Positions 38,936 to 60,484 of a DNA stretch of 64,000 nucleotides are shown here, one piece after another. The stretch's first letter is position 1, and each line of letters begins with the position of its first letter. The stretch comes from Symbiodinium sp. CCMP2592 (lineage: Eukaryota > Sar > Dinophyceae > Suessiales > Symbiodiniaceae). Where the stretch lies: contig CAJNDT010004946.1 of the NCBI GenBank assembly GCA_905221615.1, positions 425,309-489,308 on the forward strand, written 5' to 3'. A model generated the notes under the pieces. That model was given only the letters and a program-made list of their open reading frames with translations, was not told the origin of the DNA and did not search any database. The position numbers and the translations under genes were made by a program.

Positions 38936-39004
38936 AGAGCAAGCAATGGCTAACCCCAGACCTCATACCCATGTACCCCCCCCCTATACTTTTAACCCAA
39001 TTCC
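38936..39004 (+). repeat. Left terminal inverted repeat
   Basis: About 69 bp matching the reverse complement of 60417-60484 with only a few differences. Shared blocks include GGCTAACCCCAGACCTCATA, CCCATGTACCCCCC and TATACTTTTAACCCAATTC. The C run is 9 on the left and 8 on the right. Confidence 0.9.
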
Positions 39005-39238
39005 CGAACAGGATGCCTAATCAAGCCTTCGAAACCATCCAAACCAAAGCCATTAGCCAAAACCCTCAACAAAAACTCTTGAAACCATCCAAACCAAAGC
39101 CACTAGCCAAAATCCTCAACAAAACTCTCAAAACCAAAGCCACCTAAGCAAAGCTTAGCCTCAACTAGTTCTAATGAGGTCTGGGGGAAGAGCCTTATCT
39201 GAAATTCTACCCCTAAAAGGATGTGTAAGAAGTGAAAT
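39005..39238. repeat. Left subterminal region with a 51-bp direct repeat
   Basis: GAAACCATCCAAACCAAAGC and the following CCA(T/C)TAGCCAAAA(C/T)CCTCAAC occur twice about 51 bp apart, with a third partial copy. The region is strand-asymmetric (A/C-rich). Its complement resembles the T/G-rich segment at 59440-59690 inside the right terminus. CTAAGC-AAA-GCTTAG forms a small hairpin near 39146. Confidence 0.65.
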
Positions 39239-39273
39239 AATATATTAACAATATTGTATTTTGTTAATATATT
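39239..39273. terminator. Hairpin at the end of the leftmost viral gene
   Basis: Perfect 13-bp stem AATATATTAACAA with a 9-base loop. The TAA of the minus-strand gene (39272-39274) is in or at the edge of the stem. Probable 3'-end signal. Confidence 0.6.
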
Positions 39274-40138
39274 ACATCAAGCAATCATCTATAGTATTTA
39301 GATAGTCCGTATCGTCTCTCACTTTTCTTTGTTTATTGTATGGAACTGTAGGTAAATACGGAAACCTTTTGTCCAAAAACCTTTCAAATGAAAAATCATC
39401 TTCAAAATGCACTTCTGCTATTCGTTTATTAATCCATCTAAAAATTTCATTTGAATACAATTTGTTTTTCAATTTGCCAAACTTCTCATTGTTGTTTATA
39501 TGTTGGAGAATTACAAAAAATGCACTTTCAACTTTACTCAGTTGTCTTTCAAGATGATTAACAAATTTTCTCTTTGTTTTATTCTTTTCATCTACATTTT
39601 TATCATAATCATTAATTATGATGTTTCGTTGCTTACTGTAAAATTGTTTTACCTTTTCATCAATAACAAATGCAGTATCGTATAATAATTTAATGTCATT
39701 GTAGAATTCAGCATTATAAAATTTGAATTCTGGTAATATAGTGTTGGACCATCGTATTGTCTTCTCAAATTTAGGAAATGGGTTTAATTTAACATAATAG
39801 TATATTTGTGAATCTAATTTCTTCTCTGTGTAATCTGTTATATCGTATTTATGTTTATCTTCAACTGCTTTAACCACATTTTCAAAATCTTCAATACTAC
39901 AATCATAAACATTCTCCTTAAAGTCTGTTAAAGTTTTACACACTTCGCATTCCTCATAACTGTATTTACAAATCTTTGTGATAATATTGACAGGTATATT
40001 CAGTTTATATAATGACATATTCTTTTGATTGAACTTACATGTAGCACATCTACTCACTTTGTCTTTAATAACGGTTTTCATCTCAATAACATTCAAGAAC
40101 TCACTAATAATTTCCTCCTGTTCATCATGACTGAACAT
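39272..40138 (-). CDS. Unknown viral protein with two Cys pairs
   Basis: 288 residues, Lys/Asn/Phe-rich. I do not recognise the family. The N-terminal 100 residues carry C-x2-C pairs, CATCKFN (about residue 31) and CEVCKT (about residue 64), that could bind one zinc ion. The rest is charged and predicted helical. It is the first gene inside the left terminus and reads towards it. The stop codon lies within a perfect 13-bp hairpin (39239-39251 with 39261-39273), like other genes of this element. Viral core gene by position and composition; function unknown. Confidence 0.7.
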   Translation of the reverse strand: MFSHDEQEEIISEFLNVIEMKTVIKDKVSRCATCKFNQKNMSLYKLNIPVNIITKICKYSYEECEVCKTLTDFKENVYDCSIEDFENVVKAVEDKHKYDITDYTEKKLDSQIYYYVKLNPFPKFEKTIRWSNTILPEFKFYNAEFYNDIKLLYDTAFVIDEKVKQFYSKQRNIIINDYDKNVDEKNKTKRKFVNHLERQLSKVESAFFVILQHINNNEKFGKLKNKLYSNEIFRWINKRIAEVHFEDDFSFERFLDKRFPYLPTVPYNKQRKVRDDTDYLNTIDDCLM

Positions 40139-40211
40139 TTACTCTCTACTATCTTAAGTCCTCAAGTCTTTAAGTCATTTTGTAAAATACAGAATTTGTA
40201 AAATACATTAT

Positions 40212-40493
40212 TCAACTATAAACCTTATGTTCATCATTATATTGTATTTCATAATATTCTAAGGTCTCTGTTTTTGGATATCTAATTTCTCCAGTGTTAA
40301 GTTTGTTTATATATACGTTTCTCTTATTCTTATACATCTCACTGTCTTTAACTAATGTTTTGTTAATTTGTTTTGGTTTATCAGTGAGCTTCTCCAACTT
40401 GGTTTCAATTGTTTCTAGCTTCTTCAGTATCTTTTGAAATCTCGTTACATTGGTTGTTTTCACATCATCATCATCATCATCTATATCTGACAT
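40212..40493 (-). CDS. Small coiled-coil viral protein
   Basis: 93 residues starting with an acidic Asp run (MSDIDDDDDDVKTTN), then a probable coiled coil (FQKILKKLETIETKLEKL). Family not recognised. Same orientation as its neighbours at 39272 and 40883. Downstream, TTTGTAAAATAC is repeated twice (40176-40205). Confidence 0.6.
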   Translation of the reverse strand: MSDIDDDDDDVKTTNVTRFQKILKKLETIETKLEKLTDKPKQINKTLVKDSEMYKNKRNVYINKLNTGEIRYPKTETLEYYEIQYNDEHKVYS

Positions 40494-40499
40494 ACTATA

Positions 40500-41272: not shown

Positions 41273-41277
41273 TTATA

Positions 41278-41429
41278 TTATTTAGATTTTTTAATATTCT
41301 TGAAATAATAACAAACAGCTTTCAAGAAGTCTAACAAGCTATAACAACACATTCTGTATCTAGGTGTTTTATTATATCTAATTTCTCTATCTCATTTATA
41401 ACCTCTAAATAGTCATCGTAATTAGCCAT
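41278..41429 (-). pseudogene. Tiny viral ORF split by a frameshift
   Basis: ATG at 41429 starts MANYDDYLEVINEIEKLD and runs 32 codons to a TAG. In another frame the sequence continues as LLDFLKAVCYYFKNIKKSK to a stop at 41278. A single-base indel near 41338 would join them into a protein of about 50 residues with a short hydrophobic C-terminal segment. Too short for a family call. Confidence 0.4.
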
Positions 41430-41468
41430 ATATTAATAACGATATAATTTTTCTATGTATTAATAATA
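41430..41468. promoter_or_regulatory. Divergent promoter region, ATPase / left gene cluster
   Basis: 39 bp, nearly all A/T, between two divergent ATGs. TATTAATAATAATG immediately precedes the ATPase start, an instance of the element's start-proximal motif. Confidence 0.5.
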
Positions 41469-42261
41469 ATGATTATACCCATAGTTAAACCTATAAATGT
41501 TAAAGAATGTGATTTTAAACAATCTAAATATGAAGTAGCACCTAAATTACCGTTTAGTCAAATAATAACAGGCCCTAGCGGTTCTGGTAAAGGAATACTA
41601 TTGCAATCAATGATACTGGATATTTACAGGGATGTCTTTGAAAGAATATATATCTGGTCCCCTTCAATTTCAGTTGATAGTAATTGGTTGCCAGTCAAAA
41701 AATATATTCAGGATAATTTGAAGGTTAATTTAGAAAAGGAAGAGTGTATGTTTGATGAATACATACCAGAAGAATTAGAAGCAGTGATAAAAAGACAGCA
41801 TAAAGTAATACAAAAATCAGAAGAAGAACGACCACAAAAAATTATTTTCAATACTGATAATAGTAGATGACTTCGCCGACAGTAAGGCTTTTTCAAGAAA
41901 CTCGCCTTTGCTAAATCAGTTGTATGTTCGCGGGAGACATAACGCAATCAATATTATAACAAGCACACAAAAATTTAATGCTTTAAGTCCTATCATTCGC
42001 GTTAATAGTCGTCAGTTATTCTTTTTCAGATTAAGAAACTACAAAGAAATTGAAACAATGGTTGAAGAGTTAAGCGCGGTATTGATTAAAAAATCCACCG
42101 TTGCTGATACTAAAAACCTCGCGGAAGCAAAGAAGCTATTATTAGACGTATATAACATAGCAACGGAAGAACCATACAGTTTTTTGTTTATCAACTTAAT
42201 GAAAAGTGATGTTAATGATATGTTTTATAAAAGATTTGATGCTAAATTGGTAATTGATTAA
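41469..42261 (+). pseudogene. A32/FtsK-HerA-like genome packaging ATPase, frameshifted
   Basis: Packages the viral genome into the capsid. The first frame (41469-41870, 133 codons) has Walker A TGPSGSGKG at residues 34-42, preceded by PFSQII as in viral packaging ATPases, and WSPSISVDSNW after it. The coding sense then moves +1 near 41840-41850. In the new frame Walker B reads ILIIVDDFAD, then SRNSPLLNQLYVRGRHNAIN and a typical ITSTQKF motif, ending at 42261. The total is about 264 residues, the usual size for Polinton-like viruses. Without the shift the Walker B half is lost. Loss of function or an assembly error are both possible. Confidence 0.85.
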
Positions 42262-42502: not shown

Positions 42503-42522
42503 ATTATATTATAACTTATATT

Positions 42523-44820
42523 TTAATTACTATCGCTTCTATTTCCTTTACCTTTACCTTTCAACTTATTTACTTCCTTTTTCAGCTTATCTACTTCATT
42601 TATTGTTGCCTGTAAAGCACTCCATAGTATAGGTGTTGTAATTGTATAGTCAAACTTCAAATAACCATCTGTTCCTTCTTTTACTAAATTCTGCCATTCG
42701 TTTGGCATCTTCTTAGTTTCCATAAAATCATTAGCTATAAAACCACAGCAAGACTTACCTTGTATTCTACCATCAACAAAATGATATGTTTTCGGCTTAA
42801 TGTATTTTACTAATTCAACTGCTTTTTTGCTATTTAGTTCCTTTATATCTTTCTTTAGTCTTTTATCAGATGATGGTATTAATGACCCCGTATATGAAAG
42901 GTCCCCATAAACATCAACACCTGTATTTGTTGCATCTAACCTTGATAAATTATTATTACTTAATCTAATAAATCCATCTGTATCGGGATTATTTATTAGT
43001 ACTCTTTGACTACCTGAAACATCAGTATGTGTTATTTCCAAATTTCCTAATAAATGTACTTTACCTTCCGTTAATTGTATTTCCGGTGTGCTTCCTATCG
43101 TTCCTATGATAAAATTAATTGCTCTATCTGTATCGCCATTTCTTATATCTAAATCATAATCGCTTCCATTTAATGTTTCTTTAATGCCTGATGAATGTTG
43201 AAATAATATATCACCCCATACTCTTAAACTTGCTTCTGCTGTTATATCACCAATACTATTAAAAGTTTGATTGTTTGTGACTGCTCTGTTTAATGTTATT
43301 CCGTTGGTGTCGGTTAATTGCAGTGCTATTGTTGCTGTTGTTGGGTCGGTTGCTCTGTTTGCTTGAAATGAGAAATTTATTTCATCATTTGTTATTAAAT
43401 TTAAGGAATTATTAGCGTCTGCTCTTCTGTATATTTTGCTATTATTCCATATTAATATTTCATTGTTAAAAGTAGTAGCTCCGTTAAACCTTACGGTAGA
43501 ACTAAAATTAGAATTGCCACCATTCACATTAAGAACATCTGCAACTGCATTAGCTCCTATCCCTAACTTATTACATCTTACCGCGTTTGAATTGTTCATG
43601 TTTAAAAATAACTGTTGTGATGAGTCATTAGTTTGATAAGCATCAATACTAAAACCTCTAAATCTAATTTTCCCACTATTATTGGCAATCGCTACAACAT
43701 TACTGGCGTCTGTTGTTGGCTTGTAAATTGTTAATCCTGAATTATTAGAAATATTGAAATTATCAGTTTCATAAAATATATTATCTTTAAAATGTGTCGG
43801 TTTAAATAATGTTGTTCCACCCGTTGTATTATTGCATTCAATGTATGTATTTGTGTCAGTATCGTCATTAGTTCCGTTAATTAATCTTATAGCGTTAGCG
43901 GTTTCATTTATTGATAAATCCATTGATATGTTAGATTTAGTAGCATTAGTATATCGTTCAATGCTTGTGTTAGAGTTTGTTAATTCAATATCTCCCTTTA
44001 CTGTTAAATTATTTGTTAAGTCAATTTCACCTCCAACCGTTAAATTAGTTGTAATATTAGCATTATTCACGGATAAATCGTTATTAATATTAATATTTCC
44101 CGATGGATTTAAATTTAAATCTACAACGCTGTCGTCGCTTGTGGCATTTGATATAATTTTATTTCCTTGTAAAGTTATATAATTTGTAGCATTTTTAAAT
44201 ACACTAATAATTTTATCTCCTCCTCCCGTTTGATTGCTAAATAATAATCCTGTAGTGGGTGATATATTTATCGTCTCATTGTTTAATGTTAATCCACTGT
44301 GAATAATTGTAGGGGCGCTACAATCAATAATCGGAAATGTAGAAAACCTATTGGCAAAATCCGATTTAGGAACTCTCAAATCTAATAAATTATCAATTTC
44401 TGCATCAGTGTATCCACCGCCACCACCAGCACCTGCTATTAATGTATCCACCTCGCCTTTATTATAATAATTAGATGCTAGTACTGTGTTATTTTGATAA
44501 TTAGTAGATAAATTTGTATCTATCTGTGCTGATGTATAGTAGTTAGTAAATGTTGTGTCTGTCTCTGTTTTATTGTAGAAATTAGATGCTAATTGCGTGT
44601 TAGTTTGATAATTATTTGTTAAGTCGGTATTTATAGCGTTGATATTATTAAAATTTTGCAATTGTTTTGTGCTTAAAACTGCTATATCGTCTGTATTTGT
44701 TGCTATTTGTGCGTTGTTTCCTATTTCTGAGTTTGTAGCATATATTTGTGATAATTCAGTTCCACCTACAATAATAGTATCTGCTGTTAATGTGTTTGTA
44801 TTGTTTAATGTTAATGGCAT
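42523..44820 (-). CDS. Fibre protein with S74 intramolecular chaperone
   Basis: 765 residues. The N-terminal part has tail-fibre repeats (FYNKTETDT, YYTSAQIDT, YYNKGEVDT, YTDAEIDN) typical of trimeric fibres. Long stretches of Asn/Thr/Ile-rich beta-repeat follow (NLTVGGEIDLTNNLTVKGDI). The C-terminal 115 residues are a peptidase S74 / endosialidase chaperone: SDKRLKKDIKEL begins at Ser651, the expected self-cleavage serine. YIKPKTYHFV and CCGFIANDF follow, then a closing coiled coil (INEVDKLKKEVNKLKG). In this family the chaperone drives trimer folding and is then cut off. Likely the host-attachment fibre. The gene is open from end to end and starts at ATG 44820 after an ATTATTATA context. 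Confidence 0.88.
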   Translation of the reverse strand: MPLTLNNTNTLTADTIIVGGTELSQIYATNSEIGNNAQIATNTDDIAVLSTKQLQNFNNINAINTDLTNNYQTNTQLASNFYNKTETDTTFTNYYTSAQIDTNLSTNYQNNTVLASNYYNKGEVDTLIAGAGGGGGYTDAEIDNLLDLRVPKSDFANRFSTFPIIDCSAPTIIHSGLTLNNETINISPTTGLLFSNQTGGGDKIISVFKNATNYITLQGNKIISNATSDDSVVDLNLNPSGNININNDLSVNNANITTNLTVGGEIDLTNNLTVKGDIELTNSNTSIERYTNATKSNISMDLSINETANAIRLINGTNDDTDTNTYIECNNTTGGTTLFKPTHFKDNIFYETDNFNISNNSGLTIYKPTTDASNVVAIANNSGKIRFRGFSIDAYQTNDSSQQLFLNMNNSNAVRCNKLGIGANAVADVLNVNGGNSNFSSTVRFNGATTFNNEILIWNNSKIYRRADANNSLNLITNDEINFSFQANRATDPTTATIALQLTDTNGITLNRAVTNNQTFNSIGDITAEASLRVWGDILFQHSSGIKETLNGSDYDLDIRNGDTDRAINFIIGTIGSTPEIQLTEGKVHLLGNLEITHTDVSGSQRVLINNPDTDGFIRLSNNNLSRLDATNTGVDVYGDLSYTGSLIPSSDKRLKKDIKELNSKKAVELVKYIKPKTYHFVDGRIQGKSCCGFIANDFMETKKMPNEWQNLVKEGTDGYLKFDYTITTPILWSALQATINEVDKLKKEVNKLKGKGKGNRSDSN

Positions 44821-44865: not shown

Positions 44866-44958
44866 TTAATCGTAAACCGTGTAGCGATTTAGGATTAGAT
44901 ATTTCATATCTAATCGTAAACGGCGTAGCCCTTTAGGATTAAATCTTTGATTTAATCG
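44866..44958. terminator. Tandem hairpins between fibre and capsid genes
   Basis: TAATCGTAAAC(C/G)G(T/C)GTAGC..TTTAGGATTA recurs with a period of about 44 bp. The units include perfect hairpins GATTAGATAT-TTC-ATATCTAATC (44893-44915) and GATTAAATC-TTT-GATTTAATC (44937-44957). The capsid gene's TAA (44952-44954) lies in the second stem. Confidence 0.65.
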
Positions 44959-46372
44959 TAAACTTTAAGCCCTAAATCTTTTATTTCAACCACCTGTTCT
45001 GAAAGCATTGTAATGAACATCTCATCAGGCATATCATCAACTGGAATACTTGCTCCTGCTGGTTTAACTCTGATTAACATCTGCTGACCTGCGCGAGTAT
45101 TTATTCCTGTATAACTACTATCCGGCACTTTTTCAAAAGAGAAGCCAAAAATAAATTGTCTATCACGGTATTGTTTAAAATCAATTGAAATACTGTGTTG
45201 ATGAAATACCGGAAGGTTTAAGGCTTTTCTTAAATGATAGAAGCACTGAGTTAGAGAATTACAAGGATATTCTGGATACAATTTAGAACCTAATTGAATT
45301 TGAAACTCTAAATCTTTATTAATATCATAAATACCTTCTACTTAACTGTCGTGAGACTGATGAGGATGATAGAAACGGCAGAAACGCTTATTAGCATACT
45401 CATAACCTAAACTTGGGTCGTCTGTTCTGTAAAAGGTAATAAAAGAAGCAACTAATTTAGAAACGGAACGAACAACTGGAACATTAATATCGGTATAACC
45501 TGCTACTGATTGTGATTGTGTAGTATAAGTTGTATAAGTAATTGGTAATCCCTTGCCTTCTAACAAATGTTTTACGTATTCTGAGTTAAGATTATTGTCC
45601 AAAGAACAAATATCTGTGGATACAAAAGCGTTGTTTATTTCGAACAATTTTGAAGTGTTTGAAGCATTACCTGCGGGAAGTGCTACATCAGATGTAAAAC
45701 GGTATCCTATTGCGTTTGCTTCAGTGTTGTCATCAGGATTAATAATACAATCAGTATCGTTATTTACTAACTCCAATTCAATTGTTAAATTACCCATATA
45801 TTTTAATGGTAGCTACTTAAATTGAGAGAACAAGCCACATAAGGGTTTGAATCCAACAGTCGTTTGATTTTTGAAGCCTTGGCAATTAACAGAATTTACT
45901 TCATAGTCTAACTCAGCTCCTACATTATTAACTAATGTTTTAACTTCATCGTCATACCTATAGCCGAAACCTTCATTTGCTTCGTCTTTTCGTGCTCCTT
46001 GAGACATCAACTTAGAAAACATCTGATGAACACGATTGTAATTGTCAAAGTCTTCAACAACCTGATTACCAGCGATAATACGCGTTCTTCTGAAGAAAGA
46101 ATAAGGCGGTGCTAATGGTCGTAATTTCCGGTTAAGGTCTTGGTCTAAATTTTGAACTGTAAAGAATACACGAACACTTTGAGGGTCTAACCATCCGTTG
46201 TCTTCAGCATTTAACGAAATTTTAATACACGGTTTCCTGATGTAGGCTTATACACATTTGAACCTGACGGGTAAAATCTTACGCTTCTTCTATCAGTAAT
46301 ATAACTTGCTCCTTTGTTAAGTTTAAATGAGAGATTATCAACGAGTATATCCTCAGGACTGAATGTCTCCAT
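44952..46372 (-). pseudogene. MCP: Double jelly-roll major capsid protein, broken by a frameshift and two stops
   Basis: Forms the icosahedral shell. Pieces in order: from ATG 46372, METFSPEDILVDNLSFKLNK to about 46230; then, after an indel between about 46226 and 46235, NGWLDPQSVRVFFTVQNLDQ, FRRTRIIAGNQVVEDFDNYN and MFSKLMSQGARKDEANEGFG. An in-frame TAG (45813-45815) falls within GLFSQFK*LPLKYMGNLTIE, a strongly conserved MCP motif. The third piece ends in another in-frame TAA (45342-45344), then YPEYPCNSLTQCFYHLRKAL to the end at 44952. Total is about 473 codons, normal for Polinton-like viruses. After the first indel all pieces are in one phase, so the two stops are simple substitutions. 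Family call rests on the motif order and the hallmark neighbours. Confidence 0.85.
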
Positions 46373-46462
46373 AATTATATAAACTACTATAGAAAATTTA
46401 ATTAAATATAAATATAAATTTATATTTAATCAAATAGTTTAAAATTATATGAATTTTCTTTA

Positions 46463-46643: not shown

Positions 46644-47284
46644 TTAATCAAACTGCTCTAAGAATTTTTCTTGCGTTATAGGTTCATTTCCTGCTTTATT
46701 ATGAACATTACCTATATCTTGATATGAATGATTTTGTAAAGGATCTAAAGTTCCTTTATTTAATGTTATACTGCCTCTATCAAACATACTAACTACATCA
46801 CCGGCTTTTCTTATTCTTAAGTTTGTTCCTGTGTCTTCTGGTCGTTGTCCTGAAACAAAAGGAGAACCATAACTACGACTTCTAAAAATATTACCATAAT
46901 CATTATTTATTTGCTGACCCACTGCTGAACCTAAGCTATGGCTAATAATATCAGTAATTCCTGTAAGTTTTTTACCATCTACTTCTATAGTTCCATCTCT
47001 AATAAATTTATCAACATCGTTGTATCTTTTGGTTTGTTGTGTTTGATGCAATGGCAGTTTTAAATCATCATATACATCTCTACCGCTTTTAGTTCCTGCT
47101 ATGTATAAAATACTGCCATTTTGATATATTCCGTCAGGATTTTCATAAGCTAATTTAAGTCCTTGTGTATCAGTTAAAAATGTTTCCGTCCCCGCCAATT
47201 CTTCCCTAACTTCTTCATTTAATTTATTTCTTGTATTAGGCGCTTCGTATAAAACTCTTCATTTCTTCTTTTATGCTTAAACAT
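46644..47284 (-). pseudogene. Lipase-like (class 3) protein, frameshifted near its start
   Basis: An alpha/beta hydrolase that could attack host or vacuolar lipids during entry or exit (inference). Numbered from 47198: nucleophile elbow ISHSLGSAVG (Ser88), acid GDVVSMFD (Asp134) and base NHSY (His157), in the class 3 lipase order. The elbow has Ser where Gly is usual (S-H-S-L-G). The only ATG that fits, 47284 (MFKHKRRNEE), is in a different frame. A one-base shift in the GAGTTTTATAC stretch near 47251-47256 joins it to LYEAPNTRNKLNEEVREELA and the lipase. Otherwise the frame has no ATG upstream of the catalytic part. Confidence 0.75.
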
Positions 47285-47324: not shown

Positions 47325-48164
47325 ATGCTTAAATTTAAAAAAGTATATATTGATAGTAGTTATAAAGTCAATGGGACTTCATCCGATTTTATAATTGATT
47401 TGCCTGAAACAGTCCAACTTGAAGATAATATGCTATGTCAAATACACGAGGTAAGCATTCCCCATTCGTGGTATTCAATAAACAGCACAAACAACAATTT
47501 ATATTTTAGACATCAAGTTATACCACCAGGTGTTATAGCTGGTATAACTTATCGTAAAATAACAATTCCAGAAGGCAACTATACAGCAATTGATTTAGCA
47601 CAAACAATAGAAATAGCACTTAATTTGTTGGTTGATACAGTTGATAGACCAAATACATATTCTTTAAGTTATAACAGTTCAACAAATAAAATCACAATCA
47701 GTTCTAATTATGCTACGGTTATTTTTGTTGTTTTAACTGATGGTGAAATAGCGCCAGTAGCAGGAGTATTTAGCGACCCCGTTGATGTTAATAATTTAAA
47801 TTCAATCAACCGTGTCATCGGTAATACAACACCTGCTACGGATGCTTATACTAATGTAGCACCTTACACATCAGATTTTATAGACTTAGTCCCCTTCAAG
47901 AGTTTATATTTGCATTGTAATGAAATTAGCAATTACAACCAATTAACAGTAGCGGGTAATTCATCAATAGTAAAGAAAATAAATGTAACCGTGCCTTATC
48001 TTGGTGTAATTAACGACAATGAATTAAGCAGTGTTGATTATATTGATGTTAGTAATAAAATGCTTCGCAGATTGAATTTTAGACTTAGCAATAATTTAAA
48101 TCAGACGGTTAATTTAAATAATGTTGATGTCTCTTTCACTTTAACATTTTTCAGGGGTTCATAA
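47325..48164 (+). CDS. Penton / minor capsid protein
   Basis: 279 residues, open. The N-terminus KKVYIDSSYKVNGTSSDFII, with DLPETVQLEDNMLCQIHEVS and IPHSWYSI, is the signature I know from penton (single jelly-roll) proteins of Polinton-like viruses. GNYTAIDLAQTIE and a beta-rich remainder (VPYLGVINDNELSSVDYIDV) follow. In this virus class it forms the five-fold vertices beside the major capsid protein. Divergent to the lipase and first gene of a rightward group of structural and small genes. The 48164 stop is followed by AATATAG-A-CTATATT, a 7-bp hairpin. Confidence 0.8.
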   Translation: MLKFKKVYIDSSYKVNGTSSDFIIDLPETVQLEDNMLCQIHEVSIPHSWYSINSTNNNLYFRHQVIPPGVIAGITYRKITIPEGNYTAIDLAQTIEIALNLLVDTVDRPNTYSLSYNSSTNKITISSNYATVIFVVLTDGEIAPVAGVFSDPVDVNNLNSINRVIGNTTPATDAYTNVAPYTSDFIDLVPFKSLYLHCNEISNYNQLTVAGNSSIVKKINVTVPYLGVINDNELSSVDYIDVSNKMLRRLNFRLSNNLNQTVNLNNVDVSFTLTFFRGS

Positions 48165-50644: not shown

Positions 50645-50662
50645 AATATATATGTTTAATAT

Positions 50663-51391
50663 ATGTTAAGATTACGTCGCGAAGCCTCGCGAGGTCTTCT
50701 AACGAAGCGACCAACTTTTGAACAAATTGAAAGGGAAGCAAGAACACACAGATTAAAAATATTACCAGAAAGACAAAAAAGAACTCAACAAGGTATGTTA
50801 TTAGATGATGTTAATTTTGATGATTTTGATTTAGATAAGTATAATATAAGAAACCCTAACAAAGCAACACAAACGGATATGTTTAATGATAGTAGTAATT
50901 ATTCAAATGCTACATCAAATAGAAGTGTTAAAACAGCTATAGAAGGAAATGAAGATAAACAACAATCGCGTCAGGTTAGCTTATCAAGTGGGGAAAGTTT
51001 AGATAATGTAAGGTATAGAACAAGAATGTCCATAGCGGACGATTTAGCAACAATGGCAAGAGTAGGAGGTAATATTATTTATTACACAGGTCAGGGAATA
51101 GGTCAGGGTATAAATATGGCTGTTGATGCTTACAATTGGATTAACGAAGAAGAAGATGATGAAGAACCAGAGCCACCTGTTGATGAAGAAGTATTTACAC
51201 AAACGCAAGGCTTAATGAGAAGGGGTGCAAGTCGTAGCCGTAGTAATAGCCCTAGCGATGAGGAACGCGAAGCCTTCGCATCGCGTAGCGTACGCGAACA
51301 GCCAAGCGGAAGCAATCAACCAATGAGATTATTAAGAAGAGGAGCGAGTAGAAGCAGGAGTGAAACGCCACCAAAGAAAAACAAAAAATAA
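50663..51391 (+). CDS. Unknown viral protein with RS-rich tail and palindrome-encoded insert
   Basis: 242 residues. Residues 5-14 (RREASRGLLT) are encoded by a GC-rich palindromic insert (about 50675-50712). Next comes KRPTFEQIEREARTHRLKIL, whose RPTF echoes RPTY of the preceding gene, and an acidic DDVNFDDFDLDKY. A Gly-rich hydrophobic patch (GGNIIYYTGQGIGQGINMAV) is followed by an acidic stretch and twin Arg/Ser repeats (RRGASRSRS at two sites). A second GC palindrome encodes EREAFASRSVREQ between the repeats. Function unknown. Codon composition in the two inserts differs sharply from the AT-rich remainder. Confidence 0.6.
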   Translation: MLRLRREASRGLLTKRPTFEQIEREARTHRLKILPERQKRTQQGMLLDDVNFDDFDLDKYNIRNPNKATQTDMFNDSSNYSNATSNRSVKTAIEGNEDKQQSRQVSLSSGESLDNVRYRTRMSIADDLATMARVGGNIIYYTGQGIGQGINMAVDAYNWINEEEDDEEPEPPVDEEVFTQTQGLMRRGASRSRSNSPSDEEREAFASRSVREQPSGSNQPMRLLRRGASRSRSETPPKKNKK

Positions 51392-51405: not shown

Positions 51406-51702
51406 ATGGGAATAGATGTAGTTGTTAAAAAATCTGATAAAAAGGATAAAAAATATGATGCTGTTATAGATGGTAAGAAAACCGTTTCATTCGGTGCTAC
51501 AGGCTACTCTGATTTTACTAAACATAAAGATGAAGAAAGAAAACAAAGGTACATAGCAAGACACAGTGTAAATCAAGATTGGAAGGATTATAACAGTGCT
51601 GGATTTTGGGCTAAACATATACTTTGGAATAAGCCTACAGTTGAAGCTTCAGTAAAAGATACTGACAAGAGGTTTAAAAATTTGAATATCAAGTTAAAAT
51701 AA
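51406..51702 (+). CDS. DUF5754-like viral protein
   Basis: 98 residues starting after TTATTAATAATG. TVSFGATGYSDFTKHKDEER, then KQRYIARHSVNQDW, AGFWAKHILWNKPTVEASVK and a terminal KRF are the pattern I remember for DUF5754, a small family of algal giant and Polinton-like viruses. Function unknown. The gene is open and its TAA lies in a 17-bp hairpin shared with the convergent gene. Confidence 0.7.
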   Translation: MGIDVVVKKSDKKDKKYDAVIDGKKTVSFGATGYSDFTKHKDEERKQRYIARHSVNQDWKDYNSAGFWAKHILWNKPTVEASVKDTDKRFKNLNIKLK

Positions 51703-52010: not shown

Positions 52011-52111
52011 AATAAACGTTTTTCCTTTAAGTATGTTTTAACAAAACCCGGATTTTACAGAATACACTTAAAGAAATGAGATATTATATAAATAATAATA
52101 TCTGTAATATT
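52011..52111. promoter_or_regulatory. Divergent promoter upstream of the polymerase
   Basis: 101 bp with a perfect hairpin AGATATTAT-ATAAATA-ATAATATCT (52079-52103) followed by GTAATATTATG at the polymerase start. An in-frame ATG at 52076 lies before the hairpin, and its extra codons (RYYINNNICNI) merely translate it. Confidence 0.5.
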
Positions 52112-55100
52112 ATGACAAGAAAACTTATAAACACTTATATCCAGAACCTGAAAAGCATACGCGACGCCAAACAAGGCAAAACATCAAAACAAGTGATGAC
52201 CAACATTAACAACGTAATCAACTTATACGAGGACCGTAAAATCTCCCAATTCACAACAGCCGTCAATCTGATTAACGGGATGACCACGGGCAATGACAAA
52301 GCTAAGCAGAAAGGGATAAAGCAGTACGAAAAAGCAGTAGCCAAATACACCGACAAAGCCCCAATAACAGAGCGGATGAAAGCAACGGCAAAGACAGCAA
52401 GGAAAGCCCAAGGGCGCAAGAGAATTGTTGGGAAAACTGCCGAGCAACCGATATTAAAACGTAAGGCAATCGGTGGCTTAGCCACGAAGGCTAAGGAAAT
52501 ATTCAAAAACAGAAAAACTTACGATGTGAAGTATATGCTGTTTTCAAGTCAAAACCGCTCAGGGGCTAAAAGACCAGCGTTTAAAATAGACGGTGAGACA
52601 TACTACCCTTTAATGTTGGTTAATCGTAGTTCAGCAGGATATACAGCGCACGCCAACGTGAAAGCGAATGAGTTCATTGAAACACTGGTGTCCCGACGGA
52701 TAAGAAAATATCACAAGACAGAGGGACATTTGTATAAAAAGGTGTTTATGATAATGAACACCAGCAGTGAGTTTCAGAATTTAGGCGAGGTAAAGGAATA
52801 CGCCGAGGTCATTAGAATTGAAAGCGTTGAGGTGGTGGAAACGGACACTGGTGACTACGATGAAAAGGACCGGCCATTAAAGGAAGCCCAGAACATCAGC
52901 ACCTACTACCGATACATTCAGACCGAAGTTGATGGAGATGCCGAGACCATTAAGGAGGCGCTACAGAAGAAGAACTATAGAGAGAACGAGTGCTGGATAA
53001 ACGCCTTGCTGGAAAACTTTGAAGGAACTGAGCTGACGAAGGTAAAGCGACAACAAAAGAATGTAAAAACCTTAACCCGTGAAAAAGTCCTTGAGATACT
53101 GGAAATGAGTGAGGATGAATTCGTTAATAACGGGGCTTCTATAAATCAAATGGACAAGGTCTTCAAGTTTTTTAACATACCTGTTAGGCTGTATAACTTC
53201 ACAGGGGCGATGATTTATGAATACAACCCTCCTAATTATGAAAAGGGACGAGTAAAAGTATTCAGAGGCTTAGTGAAAAATAATCACATATACTTATTAA
53301 ATAACGACTTGGATACGTTAAAACACATCCAGCCAAAGGAGAACTTTAGCGCCTTCACCACGAGTAAGTTCTACATTACCGACAGAACCGAACCTGTTGA
53401 ATACAAAATGTTTGAGAACATAGACGAGCTACTAAAGATGACCGATAAAGAAGAATACTCCCTTATACACTCCGAGAACGATTTAGCAAAGGTGTTTCAT
53501 CAGCTCAGCGAGGCTGGATACAAACCACATATAAAGTATCAAGCGGGGCAGATTATGAATATATTCTGTAAGTTTTATTACAAAAACTTGAAGAAATATG
53601 TTAAATACAACATTGTATCACAGAGTTTGTCAAAGGACCGCCTTGACGAAGACGTGGTGGTTGATGACGAAGAGGTGTATAACAAAATAACTCAGACTAT
53701 GTTTAAACTGCAGAAGGAGCTGTTTAACGAAAGCCATTTATCCTATTATAACGAAGTAGATATAGAAATACTCAAGGAGTGTAAAACAATCGTTCCAACA
53801 GGTAGGTTTGTTGAAGCTGATGCGGTTAAGAAGGTAAGAGAAATAGATATTAACAAAGCTTTCACACACGCGGGAGCATCAATAACGAAAATACCCCGTT
53901 TTACACAGTTTGACATTTTTAGACCCTTTAACGAGAGTTGTGACATAAATCAGCTTAACAGCCTGACTTTATACATAGTAGAAGTGTATGAGGGCAACCT
54001 CTTCTTCAATAACAAGTTTTGTTTAGTATATGGCAAGTTTTTAAAGCAAATGCTGAAGGACAACGTTAAGCTTAACATATTATGGTATAAGCAACCAAGT
54101 AAAGTGTTCAAGGTGGATTATAAAAAACTGGTTGGGGAACTATACACAACGAAAATAACAAGCGACGAAAACCTCAACAAACAAACTCACAAAAAGCTGT
54201 GGAACATCAGCGTCGGCATGTTAGAGAAGTCGCATAACACAAGCCAGAGAAGTAGCACCTTTACTTCTTTGAGCGAGGCGTGTTATTATCAAAGGCTACA
54301 TGGAGGAAAGATATATGCAATAAGCGAGTGCCAGACGGAACTGTATGAAGTGAATGAGGACGAGATAGAAACGAAAGAGACAGAAGGAGCTAAATATTAT
54401 GTGTTAAGCACCTCTGAAAAGAAAACCTTAATAAACGGATTTATTTACATAAAGGAGCTGTTCCTACAGTATCACAACTTTAAGATGTATGAAGCATATA
54501 AGACACTGAATGATAATAATATCAAGGTATATAGTATTAAAACAGACTGCCTGACAATTCATGAAGATGATGTCCCGAAGGTGTGCGGATACATGTTCTT
54601 AACACACTGGAGAGAAGGACACCTTAAGTTCGGAAATGAAATTGGCGACTGGAGGCTGGAAGACAAAAAAACCATCACATTACCCACGCAGTTATACACA
54701 TATAAACACAACGAACTACCCAGCATCCCGAAAGTTACAAATGTCAATATCGCAGTAGAAGACGAATGGGACACTCGCCCGATATGCCAACAAATTATAA
54801 CACATAACCCTTGTTTAATCCGCGCCCGCTTCGCCGGTAGTGGAAAGAGTTATATAGGCGAATATTTCCAAAAAATGGGCTATAATGTTTTATTTGTAGT
54901 TCCAACCAATAGGCTTTTACAAGAGAAGGAAGTGGAAGCGACGACGTATAATCAGTTTTTCAGCATCGCTGTTGATGAGAATGCTGGAGAGAAACTACCG
55001 AGTTTTGATTACTCGCCTTTTAAGATAATCGTTTTTGACGAGATATATATGTCAAACTTATATGTCTTAGATAAGGTCAGGCAGTTTATAAAAAATAATC

Positions 55101-56117
55101 CTGATATAATCGTGGTTGCCACCGGCGACGTCAAGCAGTTGCAGGGAGTGGAAGTAAATTACCAACTGCCAGAACCCAGCGACGTATATGGACAACTGCC
55201 TTGATATAGTCTTTAGATACAGCATTTTCTTACAAATATGTAAAAGGGTAGGAGCGAAGGACAGCGAGGACGGCGAAAGAAACAGAGAAATAATAAATGA
55301 TATGTATGAAGACTTCTGGGAAAGGAAGTTGCCCTTTGAAGAGATTGTCCCGAAATACTTTGAAACCACTGGCGACATAATGGCATCGGAGCATAACATC
55401 GCATATACGAATATGAGGTGCAGAAACGTAGCAAACGAGATAAGGGAAAGGATGAACAAAACGAATAAATATGAAGTAGGGGAGGTACTCATAGCGAGAA
55501 AGTGGATTAAACAACCGAGGGTGAATGTGAATTTAAGGTATAAAATCGTGAGACTAAAGCCAGATAAGCTAGGGACACAAATAACACTACAAAATATAGC
55601 AAACGAGGAAGACGAGTTTATGTTATATGAGCCCATTGTAGATGCTAATTTTATTTACTCATACTGCGCCACTTGTCATTCAAGTCAAGGGGCGAGTGTA
55701 AAAGGAAGCATAACCATACACGAATACGACTTACCAATAGCAAGTAGGGAGTGGTTGTGGTGTGCAGTAACAAGGTGTGTTGATTTCAGGCAAGTCAAGT
55801 TTTACAAGAATGACGAGTATGATAAACGAATGAATAAAAATATGATTATGAGATATTTTAAGAACAAGGTGGAGAATTACAAAGTTCAAGACAGAAGAGC
55901 AGGAAGAGAGATAAACGAAGAAGCATACATAACGCCCGAATGGTGCTTACAGAGGTTTAAAAGCAGATGCGAGAAGTGCAACACACCGTTTAACTTTGAA
56001 ACCAAACAGGGTAAGTTATGTAGCAACTTCACAGCCCAGAGGCTTTGTAATGACTATAGTCACCATTCAGACAACTGTTGTGCCTACTGCTTGTGGTGTA
56101 ACGTAAGCTCACATTAA
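52112..56117 (+). pseudogene. DNA polymerase-helicase-HNH-like fusion, one frameshift
   Basis: Replicates the viral DNA. About 1,335 codons from ATG 52112. The N-terminal 280 residues are unassigned and basic. A Cys/His domain follows (NECWINALL, Cys about 294; KNNHIYLLNN, His about 392). The polymerase palm is family-B-like: motif A REIDINKAF (Asp579), a B-like KKLWNISVGML (about 697-707) and motif C YSIKTDCLTI (Asp812). No clear exonuclease motif is seen. An SF1 helicase follows: Walker A FAGSGKSY (about 909), Walker B IIVFDEIYM, motif III ATGDVKQLQ, and motifs V/VI CHSSQGASVKG and WCAVTRC. The C-terminal Cys/His module (CEKCNTPF, SHHSDNCCAYCLWCN) resembles an HNH/treble-clef. The frame changes near 55185 in a short TA run. 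The first frame ends at 55204, the second (ATG 55188) reads YMDNCLDIVF, the natural helicase continuation. One missing TA unit would explain it. Confidence 0.82.
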
Positions 56118-56160: not shown

Positions 56161-56781
56161 ATGAGTGAAAATAAGTACCAAAAGGGCAAAATATACAAAA
56201 TAACCGATGTGGCGTATAATGACTGCTACTACGGGTCAACTATTGAACCGCTGACGAAACGGATGATACACCACAAGCATAAATATTTCAACCAGAATAC
56301 ATCGCAAGAAACATGCGTAAGAAGTGTAAATAACATCTTTAATAAATACGGTTTTGAAAACTGCAAAATTGAATTAGTTGAAAACTTCCCATGTGCATCC
56401 AAAGAAGAATTAGTTAAGCGCGAAGGTCATTACATAAAAGATAACGAGTGCGTAAACAAACAATCTAATGTAGCGGGGCGAACTAAGGAGGAATACAGAC
56501 ACGAAGAGCGTGATAAACTCAATGTGCGCTCAAAAGAATATTACAGAAACCATGTGGAAGAAAGATGTGCATACCAAAAAGAATACAGCAAGAACAATGT
56601 TGAAAAGATAAGACAGCAAAAATTGAATTATCGTGAGCGAAACAAGGAAACCCTCACAACGCCTATCTCGTGCGGATGTGGTCTGGTTTTCCAACAACGC
56701 TCCCGAACCCGCCACGAAAAATGCAAGAAGCATCAAGAATGGCTAAAACAACAAGAACAACAAACCGAACAATCAGAATAG
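56161..56781 (+). CDS. GIY-YIG endonuclease with C-terminal zinc-like motif
   Basis: 206 residues, open. GIY-YIG elements: GKIYKIT (Tyr12), CYYGSTIEP (Tyr24-Gly25), Arg34 in LTKRMIHHK, and the metal-binding Glu88 in VKREGHYIKD. A long charged linker (KEYYRNHVEERCAYQKEYSK) leads to a Cys/His cluster CGCGLVFQQRSRTRHEKCKK that could bind zinc or DNA. Stand-alone GIY-YIG enzymes in viruses are usually homing-type or recombination nucleases. Here it sits between polymerase and integrase, all reading rightwards. The A/T-rich ATAATA..TATTAT hairpin after its stop overlaps the integrase promoter. Confidence 0.8.
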   Translation: MSENKYQKGKIYKITDVAYNDCYYGSTIEPLTKRMIHHKHKYFNQNTSQETCVRSVNNIFNKYGFENCKIELVENFPCASKEELVKREGHYIKDNECVNKQSNVAGRTKEEYRHEERDKLNVRSKEYYRNHVEERCAYQKEYSKNNVEKIRQQKLNYRERNKETLTTPISCGCGLVFQQRSRTRHEKCKKHQEWLKQQEQQTEQSE

Positions 56782-56806
56782 AAATAATAATATCTTGTTT
56801 ATTATA

Positions 56807-57727
56807 ATGACTTCTAAACAAGATATTATCCGCAATGTTTATTATGACCGCTCAGGGTTTGGGAGTAGGGCGACTACTTTGAAAGATGCCCGAGAGAAGG
56901 ATAAAAGTATCACGAAAGACGATGTTGAGGAGTTTTTTAGAAAGAACATTGAAGAGAAAAGAAAACCGCGTGGTGAGAATAGTTTTGTAGCACCCCACGC
57001 GCATTTTGAATATCAGGTGGATTTATTCTTTATAAGCAAAAATGATTTAGAAAACCAAAAATTCAGAATTGGGTTGGTTTTAATTGATATTTTCAGTAAA
57101 TACGCTGCTGTTATACCTATTAAGAGTAAAGAACCACCTGATATGTTGGCGGGAATAATGGAAGGACTACAAAAAATGGGGGATAAACCAAAAATGTTTT
57201 ACAGTGATGAGGAAGGGAGTTTATACAGCAAAACAGTTATAGAATATTTGGAGGGTGAGAAAATTGAGATACATAGAACAAGAGGGCATCCAGCGTTCGC
57301 GGAGCGTTTTATAAGAACATATAAAGATATGCTGTTTAAGCGGGTTGAAGCAGATGAGAAGAAAGGAAAGCAAAATATACAGTGGATAGATTATAATTCA
57401 GAGATATTATTAACATATAATAATAAAATGGTTTCATCAACTACAAAAATGACACCATTAGAAGCAAGGAAAAAGAAACATGAATTTGAAGTAAAATTGA
57501 ATATATGTTTACAGGCAAAACGCAATAGAACATACCCCGAAATAGAAGTGGGGAATAGTGTTAAAATAATGCGTAAAAAAGGCATTAGTGAAAAAGAACG
57601 CACCAGTCATTGGGTGAGAACCCCCCAAAAAGTAAAACGAATAGATAAGAAATTAGGACAAACATATTATCATTTGGAAAACGATGACAAACGAGGTTAC
57701 TTAAGGCACGAATTATTAAAGATGTGA
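56807..57727 (+). CDS. Retrovirus-type (rve, DDE) integrase
   Basis: 306 residues from ATG 56807. It inserts the viral DNA ends into host DNA. The RNase H-like core is visible: FEYQVDLFF (Asp72), LVLIDIFSKYAAVIPIKSK, KMFYSDEEGS (Asp134) and HPAFAERFIRTYKDML (Glu166). The D-E spacing is 31 residues, shorter than the classical 35. LLTYNNKMVSSTTKMTPLEA follows, then a C-terminal chromo/SH3-like DNA-binding part (VGNSVKIMRKKGISEKERTS). The frame is intact, unlike six other genes. An rve integrase is the hallmark of Polinton/Maverick-type integration. Followed by a GC-rich hairpin at 57750-57764. Confidence 0.88.
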   Translation: MTSKQDIIRNVYYDRSGFGSRATTLKDAREKDKSITKDDVEEFFRKNIEEKRKPRGENSFVAPHAHFEYQVDLFFISKNDLENQKFRIGLVLIDIFSKYAAVIPIKSKEPPDMLAGIMEGLQKMGDKPKMFYSDEEGSLYSKTVIEYLEGEKIEIHRTRGHPAFAERFIRTYKDMLFKRVEADEKKGKQNIQWIDYNSEILLTYNNKMVSSTTKMTPLEARKKKHEFEVKLNICLQAKRNRTYPEIEVGNSVKIMRKKGISEKERTSHWVRTPQKVKRIDKKLGQTYYHLENDDKRGYLRHELLKM

Positions 57728-57749
57728 AGAACCTGCCAACCATCCAGAG

Positions 57750-57790
57750 GTCGCGCATCGCGACTCTTCATCAGAAGACGAAGCGTCAAA
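57750..57790. terminator. GC-rich hairpins after the integrase
   Basis: GTCGCG-CAT-CGCGAC (57750-57764), TCTTC-ATCA-GAAGA (57765-57778) and GACG-AAG-CGTC in immediate succession. Same style as the GC palindromes at 40748, 50675 and 51262. Confidence 0.6.
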
Positions 57791-57799
57791 AGCAATGTC

Positions 57800-59430
57800 G
57801 CATTAAGATTTTAAATGTTTCTTGTGGTTGGTTCGTGCGTTGCTTCTTGTAATGGATCGTCCTACATATTCTAATCCGTGGTTTTCACGGTGTTCCGGGC
57901 CTTACACAAGTATCCTAAGCTGGCAAAGCGTAGTTTTAGACACAGCAGTTGGGATTTCTTCCTCTCTGTGGCAGGAAGGTCCGGTAAGCCCACAAAGTCG
58001 ACCCTACCCCGAGGCTCCTCAAACACGAAACCAAACAGCAGTCGATAAGACACTAACCTCAGCTGGAAAATTCAAAGAAAGCATCCCAGCCGGTCCCAGC
58101 CATTGAAATCTCTGCGTCGTCGGGGAAGGGACTTCACCTGGCGAGAGTGCATGTTCACCGTTAACTGTGTTGCGAGTGGGCTTGCTGGAAGGTTCAGTGC
58201 GAAAATACCGACACACGCAGATCCCCCACTGCTTTTTTCTGATCTTGAGCCTGGCTTCCGTGGAGAGCAGCACGGTCGTGTCTGTAATCAACCCGCACGC
58301 TTTCCCTCAGGCCTTGTCACGAGCCAAATTGCAAGAAAGTACCCGCAAATGACGCCGTTGACCTTCACATCGATGTTGTCGACAGTGTCGGTCAAGCTGT
58401 TCAACTTGCTTTCGAGTTTGTCGACCTTTTTGTCGACCTTCTGCTCAAGCCGAGCAACGGTCTCCTTGATATCGGTGCGGAATTCCTTGTTGCTGTCGTT
58501 GAAGCCGTTGTAGACGGCCATGAAGGCAAAGATAACGATGCCGGTGAAAATGCTCGTGGGCACTGTCGAAATCACCCTATCCAACCAGTCACTCGAACCA
58601 GCTCTTGGTTGTTGCACCTATCAGGGGCTATACTGTACGTGTGGAGTTTTACCTGTGTTTTGGTGCTGTTGCGGGCTTTTTGATAAATCTGCCGCGCTGC
58701 GTTTGTCTCCTTCCGTGACATGATGTTCAAGTCGCCTTCGTTGCTGGCTTCGGGGAAGGCAAACTGGAACGACAAACGTTGTCATCGCAGCGGCGCTGAG
58801 CAGCACGAGAACCAGCCTACGAATTTGAGCCATGGCTTGGTCCTTGGTCCAGCTGGACACTATCTGTCACGAAGTCTCACTAAGTGTAGCTGCAGCCGCT
58901 GCGGGCAAACACCCACGGCCAGCAAGGTGCGCGCAAACGTGCTCATTACACAGCAGTGGACAACCGCAGCAAGCTAGATTCACCCACAGCAAGCATGCCA
59001 GGCGCACCGGGTGGCCAACTCGACCAAAACGAGACATGGCTACCAGACTTTTCCACCGTTTCTTTAGAAATTTACGCCTACTGTCTGCAGGTAGTTGAGA
59101 TTTGAGCGCATGTAAGTGTGTTTTGCTCAGGACAACTGCTGGGTGTGTGTAAGGTACCCTTTTGGGGATACTTGCACTGGACATCCGAAATGCTAGCTGC
59201 CCGCCCAATGTTTGCTTGGGTTTCAACTACGAATTTTCGAAAGTGTACATGGGAACTCATCAAAGCGGGCGCCGTTTTGACTGCAGACTGCAAGTTGCAG
59301 AATAGAAGATCGGACTATCGTATCATTCAAATACGGGGGCCCAAATATCAGGACTGCCATTTGGTTGGCGCACGTGGCTTGATTCAGTGCAGAACTGCTA
59401 TGTTCGGATTCTACTGAATTTTCAAGATAC
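57800..59430. other. Host-like segment inside the viral element
   Basis: Between the integrase and the right terminal region the composition returns to that of the flanks. There are no viral genes. It contains the exon-like minus-strand ORFs described separately and otherwise short ORFs. Either cargo or a nested insertion, since the terminal inverted repeat lies beyond it. Confidence 0.55.
58345..58833 (-). pseudogene. Exon-like host-type gene fragment: signal peptide, membrane segment, coiled coil
   Basis: From ATG 58833 (context GCCATGGC) a signal-peptide-like start, MAQIRRLVLVLLSAAAMTTF, is followed after a frame change by FAFPEASNEGDLNIMSRKET and NAARQIYQKARNSTKTQ. A GTAAAAC that could be a splice donor comes next. 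Just beyond, a third open piece reads DWLDRVISTVPTSIF, a transmembrane segment (TGIVIFAFMAVYNGF) and a heptad coiled coil (VARLEQKVDKKVDKLESKLN). It fades near 58345 at a possible donor. The amino-acid quality is clearly gene-like. The frame change near 58770 means a frameshift or an unusual splice. Family not recognised. Confidence 0.4.
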
Positions 59431-59439
59431 CTTCCTGAG

Positions 59440-59717
59440 GAGCCTTTCCCAGTTCAGGGTTATGGTCTTTTGGGGATTTTCTATTAGGGTCTTACCCCAC
59501 ATCTCATGTTAGGATATAGGTTATTTTATGGTTGAGGGTAGGATTTGTTTAGGTGCTTTGGGTTTTGGATTGTGTTTTGGATTGTTGTTTTGGGTTGGTG
59601 GGTTGCTTTGTTTTCGGGATTGTTGCATTGGTTTTGGGAGGTGCTTTGTGTTTTGCGGGATTTAAGGGTTGAAGTGTTAGGCGGGTTGAGAATTGGGGTG
59701 AAAGCATAGGGGGGAGG
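59440..59717. repeat. T/G-rich subterminal segment of the right end
   Basis: Strand-asymmetric GGGTTTTGG/GGATTGTTG motifs, similar in style to the complement of the left subterminal region. It ends in GGTGAAAGCATAGGGGGGAG, a degenerate relative of the terminal inverted repeat. Confidence 0.6.
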
Positions 59718-60426
59718 TCAGGATGTGAGGTGTGGGGTTAGCTATTGCTTTCGTTTTTGTGGGTCAGGATTGTGGTAAGGTGGTGGATGTAGGTAGTGCT
59801 TTTGGTTTGGGTTGTATCAGGAAGGTCGGTTTATTAGGTGGTTAGAGAATTGGGGTCAGGATGTGAGGTGTGGGGTTAGCTATTGCTTTCGTTTTTGTGG
59901 GTCAGGATTGTGGTAAGGTGGTGGATGTAGGTAGTGCTTTTGGTTTGGGTTGTATCAGGAAGGTCGGTTTATTAGATGGTTAGAGAATTGGGGTGAAAGC
60001 ATAGGGGGGAGGTCAGGATGTGAGGTGTGGGGTTAGCTATTGCTTTCGTTTTTGTGGGTCAGGATTGTGGTAAGGTGGTGGATGTAGGTAGTGCTTTTGG
60101 TTTGGGTTGTATCAGGAAGGTCGGTTTATTAGGTGGTTAGAGAATTGGGGTCAGGATGTGAGGTGTGGGGTTAGCTATTGCTTTCGTTTTTGTGGGTCAG
60201 GATTGTGGTAAGGTGGTGGATGTAGGTAGTGCTTTTGGTTTGGGTTGTATCAGGAAGGTCGGTTTATTAGGTGGTTAGAGAATTGGGGTCAGGATGTGAG
60301 GTGTGGGGTTAGCTATTGCTTTCGTTTTTGTGGGTCAGGATTGTGGTAAGGTGGTGGATGTAGGTAGTGCTTTTGGTTTGGGTTGTATCAGGAAGGTCGG
60401 TTTATGAGATGGTTAGAGAATTGGGT
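59718..60426. repeat. Five tandem units of 138-157 bp, TIR-like
   Basis: Units start at 59718, 59856, 60013, 60151 and 60289. Four are 138 bp; the second is 157 bp because it ends with an extra GAAAGCATAGGGGGGAGG-type block. They look nearly identical to each other. Each contains TGAGGTGTGGGGTTAGCTAT followed by TGCTTTCG, and ends in TTAGAGAATTGGG, matching in order the terminal repeat (TATGAGGTCTGGGGTTAGCC, TATGCTTGCTC, GAATTGGGTTAAAAG). Confidence 0.88.
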
Positions 60427-60484
60427 TAAAAGTATAGGGGGGGGTACATGGGTATGAGGTCTGGGGTTAGCCTATGCTTGCTCT
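60417..60484 (-). repeat. Right terminal inverted repeat
   Basis: Reverse complement of 38936-39004. The outermost bases are GCTTGCTCT on this strand. It follows directly on the tandem TIR-like array. Confidence 0.9.

Follow-up and report, generated by a model that had tools for sequence, protein, structure and literature searches.

A fixed, exchangeable slot of host-like genes beside the integrase of a family of Polinton-like proviruses, and its possible role as a conversion locus

Prophage conversion genes and the hotspots of P4 satellites are variable, compositionally distinct accessory genes that sit at one place of an integrating element. Here, we describe a comparable arrangement in a Polinton-like virus (PLV) integrated at positions 38938-60482 of a 64,000-nucleotide stretch of the Symbiodinium sp. 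CCMP2592 assembly (contig CAJNDT010004946.1, positions 425,309 to 489,308 of the forward strand; hereafter the window). The variable genes occupy a slot between the integrase and the right terminal inverted repeat (TIR). In contrast to the bacterial systems, the carrier is a eukaryotic double-stranded DNA provirus, and we infer expression of the slot genes and their benefit.

Multi-copy integrated elements with a major capsid protein (MCP) and TIRs, as found here, have been described from dinoflagellates as the 'Dino' MCP group (Bellas et al. 2023, PMC10120064). The accessible text of that report gives these elements a length of generally 15-30 kb, a sometimes deviating GC content and an rve or tyrosine integrase, and places them in dinoflagellates and other protists; a terminal cargo slot like the one present here is not described for the group in that text, and the likeness is one of overall build. 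Tlr1-like fusions of a protein-primed polymerase and an SF1 helicase (pPolB-S1H) share with the present element the polymerase palm and the SF1 helicase; they carry a C-terminal HNH or GIY-YIG domain, of which the HNH-like tail here is a candidate counterpart, and Tlr1 likewise uses an rve integrase, according to the available portion of Krupovic et al. 2024 (PMC11071308). In the accessible part of PMC12220804, the Peptidase_S74 domain (S74) is ubiquitous in PLVs and an HNH-helicase fusion, there termed N-terminal, is reported for Symbiodinium PLVs (n=12). OmPLV of Oxyrrhis marina is also a fragmented PLV with a polymerase-helicase fusion in a dinoflagellate genome, but it differs, as far as the accessible description extends, in an N-terminal helicase, a full exonuclease, a tyrosine recombinase and the lack of a target duplication (PMC12721341). 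Nematode Mavericks are likewise Polinton-type elements that move cellular genes; their cargo consists of wosp proteases and krma kinases in the available text (PMC10680173), whereas here many alternative genes, some with presequence-bearing products, occupy a fixed slot on the integrase side. Dinoflagellate Polinton-like proviruses, HNH-tailed Tlr1-like helicases, S74 fibres and Maverick cargo are already known. New here is the fixed, exchangeable slot of host-like genes adjoining the integrase; in the open-access literature that we searched, no fixed and exchangeable cargo or conversion slot beside the integrase of a PLV was found.

A search of the 1.1-Gb assembly with the integrase yielded at least 129 scored places from 613 candidates; some of the scored places tie exactly and could stem from contigs present twice. 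Of the 129 integrase frames, 114 are free of stops by table count, although the best candidates are over-represented in this sample. The sister copies that the original prediction, made from the letters of the window, proposed to look for thus exist. We read the right ends of 28 copies, namely the window copy and ranks 2-28 of the 129 places. A slot of 1.0-3.2 kb lies at the same place in 22 of these, comprising all copies of right-end types A (13 copies, the window and 12 sisters), B (L031, L033, L034 and L037) and C (L035, L036, L039, L045 and L047). In the window it consists of 1.7 kb of host-like GC content (57728..59446, minus strand) with a possible relic of a membrane/coiled-coil gene at 58866-58291 that spreads over more than one frame. 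Measured from 250 bp behind the integrase, slot GC is 0.44-0.54 as against 0.32-0.37 for the integrase in all 22 copies. At third codon positions (GC3), the 12 slot genes measured reach 0.58-0.69, close to the 0.57 measured for a retroelement-like open reading frame (ORF) in the flanking host DNA; the corresponding values are 0.20-0.22 for the S74 fibre and penton genes, 0.31 for the integrase and an intermediate 0.47 for the polymerase-helicase.

The start of the slot (the first few hundred, up to about 600 bases behind the integrase) and the right ends can be aligned between copies. Slot interiors gave matches of at least 60 nt at E 1e-8 in 4 of 94 within-type pairs (L022/L040, L031/L034, L033/L037 and L035/L036). 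A genome search with 57800-59530 of the window (41 rows, 82 candidates) returned for 57800-59247 the self-match only; one place on C180 matched from 59248, whereas the remaining rows were confined to the edge of the TIR (about 59439 onward). Compositionally distinct genes at a fixed place that vary between related elements, a mark of conversion (moron-type) loci, are thus seen in 22 of the 28 copies. The same observations would also be expected if the slot were passively captured host sequence, brought in by recombination or gap repair near the right end and devoid of function: the GC content is host-like, the interiors of the remaining 90 of the 94 pairs are unrelated, and the window interior has no second copy in the genome search. 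We nevertheless consider passive capture unlikely, as it does not account for two gene families that recur in slots and almost nowhere else.

The first of these families consists of small proteins that combine three hydrophobic segments with a coiled coil, present in L022, L040, L023, L026 and L028 and connected by phmmer (L022/L040 at 6.5e-42, L026/L028 at 6.4e-14, the others more weakly); the L039 slot protein has the same layout without a significant match. Three hydrophobic segments are seen in five of these six membrane-type proteins, the sixth, from L040, being a frame without a start. In L026 the membrane gene is not the longest ORF of its slot. Genome-wide, the L028 protein has four loci and all four lie in slots: C1580 (itself), C1946 (L023), C3447 (L026) and C4932, the last with an integrase in front and right-TIR units beyond. 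The second family is represented by the slot protein of L048, an NTPase whose presequence-like start contains FVVAP. Eight of the nine genome loci of its relatives are in right-end slots: at six (C325, C2469, C513, C802 twice and C3558) a TIR lies 75 bp from the aligned frame on the opposite strand, C406 is 1.1 kb behind an integrase, and C3657 is the locus of L048 itself. Because the loci of both families are nearly all in slots, no outside source gene is seen for either. That slot NTPases are crinkler-type effectors was considered and is not claimed here, Pfam giving only general AAA matches below the cut-off (AAA_16 for L048, E=1.2e-5).

The other slots hold ORFs of 178-746 aa without a Pfam match at the cut-off. 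Those of L025, L031, L033, L034 and L037 measure 534-746 aa and show, where seen in full, an LRGGGK- or SGGGK-like string by eye; for the large ORFs of L025, L033 and L034 a Pfam match at the cut-off is absent. In the L035 and L036 slots, an NTPase-type ORF of 280 aa shares its strand with a separate presequence-like ORF of 103 aa, which points to a gene that is split or spliced. In these GC-rich slots the length of an ORF says little by itself about coding: in 4 of the 13 type A slots (window, L027, L030 and L040) the longest ORF was reached by at least 11 of 60 resampled slots.

Constraint at the codon level likewise speaks against passive capture. The slot gene shared by L022 and L040 has a dN/dS of 0.26 at a dS of 1.04, and its differences are distributed 42/20/63 over the three codon positions (p=1.5e-5). 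The other pairs fit relaxed or no selection, which favours passive capture and weighs against a maintained locus: dN/dS is 0.62 in L035/L036 with very few changes, 0.65 in L031/L034 and 0.78 in L033/L037, and the L023 gene differs from its near copy at C4932 by three amino-acid changes and zero synonymous ones. For the integrase, dN/dS is 0.06-0.21 in six copy pairs, the L035/L036 pair being left out as no frame was found. The slot has a history separate from that of the neighbouring integrase: dS is 0.394 in the integrase and 0.053 in the slot gene of L031/L034, the opposite applies to L033/L037 (0.097 and 0.280, respectively), and L035 and L039 carry different slot genes beside integrase DNA that is 97.7% identical. 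In an integrase tree of 21 copies (L028 being too short), read by its topology alone, the slot classes are scattered.

We further searched the slots for presequence-like starts, defined as ORFs that open with ATG, reach 80 aa or more and combine a basic start and a hydrophobic stretch with F[VIL]x0-2P within residues 13-36. Such an ORF is present in 8 of the 22 slots (L022, L023, L026, L028, L035, L036, L039 and L048), the window slot belonging to the 14 without one; when the slots were shuffled, the average over 40 rounds was 0.25 and the count never exceeded 2. All eight ORFs run antisense to the integrase, a single orientation that passive capture would not predict. Plastid presequences of peridinin dinoflagellates carry an FVA/SP motif, to which class I adds a hydrophobic segment (available part of PMC3055265), and the putative slot presequences resemble these.

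Composition and presequences bear on a second explanation, by which the slot would hold ordinary viral accessory genes of odd composition with roles during infection, such as a pore, exclusion or a virion membrane, that are neither host-derived nor expressed from the provirus. Putative pore-forming SLATT proteins are common in PLVs of cryptophytes (accessible text of PMC12220804), and the confinement of both tested slot families to the elements suits this explanation. It leaves the GC3 gap between the fibre, penton and integrase genes (0.20-0.31) and the slot genes to be explained, the intermediate polymerase-helicase notwithstanding, and it does not predict presequences of the FVxP type. We regard it as rather doubtful; together with passive capture it is the chief rival of the reading preferred here.

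According to that preferred reading, a large family of Polinton-like proviruses integrates by its rve integrase with a 5-bp duplication, copies itself with a protein-primed polymerase-helicase, and keeps between the integrase and the right inverted repeat a 1-3 kb slot of host-like composition, which is filled with different accessory genes in different copies and swapped among copies. Most recognised slot genes read from the right repeat towards the interior of the element, on the strand opposite to the integrase, and several code for proteins with a putative presequence of secretory or plastid type. Their transcription would take place in the host nucleus, from the provirus in its integrated state, and the products would go to the endomembrane system or the plastid, where they would condition the host to the benefit of the provirus. 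Expression in the integrated state is suggested by the high GC3 near that of the host-flank ORF, the mostly inward orientation and the presequences. The structure, position and variability of the slot, the genome-wide confinement of two gene families and the codon-level constraint in one pair are observed, and it is from these that we infer expression, a plastid destination and a benefit to the provirus. We find it fairly probable that the provirus maintains and expresses the slot as an accessory locus that conditions the host as prophage conversion genes do. The narrower proposal of a dedicated, exchangeable conversion locus, with host-tuned genes driven from the TIR of the silent provirus, whose products pass through the secretory route to the plastid or endomembranes and alter host fitness or resistance to other viruses, is tentative. 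If true, such a conversion locus would be a eukaryotic equivalent both of the conversion genes of phages and of the hotspots in which phage satellites keep defence genes. Thousands of Polinton-like proviruses can reside in protist genomes, and for any effect of theirs on the host the slot offers a concrete place for asking which genes are transcribed, where the encoded proteins end up and whether they give protection from giant viruses or from other proviruses. A simple genomic test is available in any dinoflagellate assembly, in the 1-3 kb from the rve integrase to the right TIR.

Several further observations weigh against a maintained, provirus-expressed locus. With regard to composition, some slots open with AT-rich, viral-looking ORFs (GIY-YIG-like in L031; in L039 similar by eye to window 39272-40138). 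As to the gene families, one of the nine NTPase loci, C480, is the only one not assigned to a slot, seven of the nine (all but C3657 and C325) have stops in at least one row, and the C802 (twice) and C3558 rows resemble duplicates of one another. Among the slot proteins tested, only the RNase H ORF of L032 reached a Pfam cut-off, and it was excluded from the slot counts; PADLOC gave a single weak match among 10 proteins (L028, E=0.0073). The presequence rule was drawn up after examples had been seen; the independent cases number fewer than eight, since L035 is 97% identical to L036 and membrane-type proteins account for five of the eight, and the L040 frame lacks a start. In L024 and L038 the longest ORF lies on the integrase strand. 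The slot gene of the window itself is broken, has no start of the presequence type and shows only a weak relation to the membrane family (two seeds gave E 0.046 and 0.12, and a coiled-coil ORF of L027 gave 1.8e-4). An intron with GT/AG-like edges by eye was considered for it and dropped, as a broken gene accounts equally well for the frames. Finally, L041-L043 and L046 have another gene order, in which the integrase adjoins minor virion genes and no slot is found there; L032 and L044, with ORFs of RNase H/reverse-transcriptase type behind the integrase, were not judgeable and were excluded from the slot counts; and for types B and C the right end was placed by common right-end sequence, without matched left repeats. 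Since the integrase of L041-L043 and L046 sits beside minor virion genes, gene order has been rearranged within the family. These four copies form a related lineage with a 342-aa integrase frame.

The original prediction had bounded the element at 38936..60484; its inverted termini were confirmed, each end being off by two bases. The right ends of 11 of the 12 type A sisters show TGCTTGCT and diverge directly after it, L038 displaying only the inner part of this common end, and from these right ends we set the bounds to 38938, where the element starts with AGCAAGC, and 60482 (21,545 bp). Both ends carry 5'-AGCAAGC in inverted orientation; the TIRs are 21.4 kb apart, 52-nt arms are 94% complementary, and the outer ends are identical in 69 of 74 columns. 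The left TIR (38938..39165, plus strand) matches the right end with 92% over its outer 78 bp and 59531-59750 with 70% over 225 bp. The right TIR and a tandem array of TIR-derived units take up the right 1.04 kb (59446..60482, minus strand; TRF periods 138, 157 and 295). The array spans 59684-60425, and repeated TIR units are likewise found at the right ends of L023, L026, L027 and L029. The target duplication CTAAG flanks the element on both sides (38933..38937 and 60483..60487). A 5-bp duplication and 5'-AG...CT-3' ends fit an rve integrase. For such elements, duplications of 4-6 bp are given in the accessible text of PMC12220804. The abrupt switch to AT-rich coding DNA that had been predicted is borne out by a steep fall in GC from 0.535 to 0.301 at 39.0 kb; the right edge of this block had been missed, as it stops at about 57.75 kb, 2.7 kb short of the right terminus, where GC returns to about 0.5, and the last 2.7 kb consist of host-like DNA and the array of TIR-derived repeats.

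The TIRs, target duplication, MCP, polymerase-helicase and rve integrase agree with the predicted PLV integrated in a eukaryotic genome. A dinoflagellate-type genome is compatible with the 1.1-Gb genome, the FVxP-type presequences and the published abundance of such elements in dinoflagellates, which leave it unproven; a spliced-leader relic with up to 3 mismatches was not found within the window. The predicted capsid, penton-like, packaging-ATPase-like, polymerase-helicase, integrase, S74 fibre and GIY-YIG genes are all present, with evidence of varying strength. The MCP gene (44955..46429, minus strand) is broken by a frame change and by two in-frame stops, TAG and TAA, and has 368 relatives among public proteins. 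A structure model of one relative, of modest confidence (pLDDT 51.6, pTM 0.44), matches the capsids of PBCV-1, faustovirus, poxvirus D13, ASFV p72, iridovirus and virophage and identifies a double jelly-roll MCP in the element; searching PDB sequences with the MCP profile brought no useful match. The polymerase-helicase gene (52076..56117, plus strand) is split inside the helicase into frames 52076-55204 and 55188-56117. It has at least 247 public relatives, scored among 7998 candidates sharing most words and many of them about 1330-1350 aa long. In the model of relative P0001 (pLDDT 65.9, modelled without the N-terminal third), the first part matches phi29 polymerase and the second Pif1/RecD2 helicases, so that a protein-primed PolB palm followed by an SF1 helicase is recognised, as in the Tlr1-like helicase. 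Tlr1-like helicases also have terminal-protein and vOTU domains at the N-terminus and lack an exonuclease domain; for this part a Cys...His pattern was seen by eye only. The C-terminal Cys/His tail is HNH-like; it is kept in relatives, and Pfam gave no match to it.

The open 279-aa penton/minor-capsid candidate (47325..48164, plus strand) has 331 relatives with up to 96% identity; relative P0226 matches PF19254/DUF5901 with E=2e-5, just short of the cut-off, and the penton family adjoins the MCP. The packaging-ATPase-like gene (41448..42258, plus strand) is broken into overlapping frames 41448-41867 and 41809-42258, with Pox_A32 at E=0.0013, under the curated cut-off, and PHROGs without a match. 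A 765-aa fibre with a C-terminal Peptidase_S74 chaperone (42523..44820, minus strand; PF13884, E=6.9e-8), a DUF5754 (Tlr6f) protein (51406..51702, plus strand; PF19058, E=5.7e-20), a free-standing GIY-YIG-type homing endonuclease (56161..56781, plus strand; phrog_19446, E=7.4e-6, no GIY-YIG match in Pfam) and the rve-type integrase (56807..57727, plus strand; PF00665, E=0.0074, under the cut-off; phrog_956, E=0.0036) are open. The 204-aa ORF at 46647..47258 (minus strand) had been called a lipase; neither Pfam nor PDB sequences nor PHROGs gave a lipase match, an S-H-S-L-G-S string seen by eye being the sole hint.

We consider it highly improbable that the essential point is a whole PLV whose viral gene set marks a lineage of its own, as originally proposed. 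Termini, duplication, MCP, polymerase-helicase and rve integrase are indeed present, and both termini are in place; the MCP, ATPase and polymerase-helicase genes are, however, each broken, the helicase-HNH fusion, S74 and DUF5754 are already published for PLVs, and the lipase is unsupported. A new lineage is therefore not supported by the viral gene set. With these three core genes broken, the window copy is decayed and cannot be assumed to form virions; relatives with open polymerase-helicase and MCP genes exist among public proteins.

Pfam and PHROGs gave no match for a 288-aa ORF of no family at 39272..40138 (minus strand). Two open genes of 344 and 242 aa (49610..51391, plus strand) have similar ORFs by eye in L041-L043 and L046. 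Among the window proteins run against Pfam there was no convincing match to a maturation protease, no search aimed at proteases having been made. No relative of the polymerase-helicase or of the penton came up in IMG/VR, and Rfam gave no match at gathering thresholds. A mini-element at C180:47681-48498 (L019:7682-8499) has termini similar to type A and a 5-bp duplication, TCTAG, and contains 199 bp of the window's slot at 95% identity; it is probably a MITE-like derivative that was moved in trans. In the left flank, 5860-12373 (minus strand) holds Copia-like retroelement frames, including a 1702-aa ORF, with gag knuckle, rve-like and RNase H-like strings by eye, and at 31147-35316 a long region of degenerate repeats of about 41 bp flanks a TCCA/TGGA-rich block on both sides.

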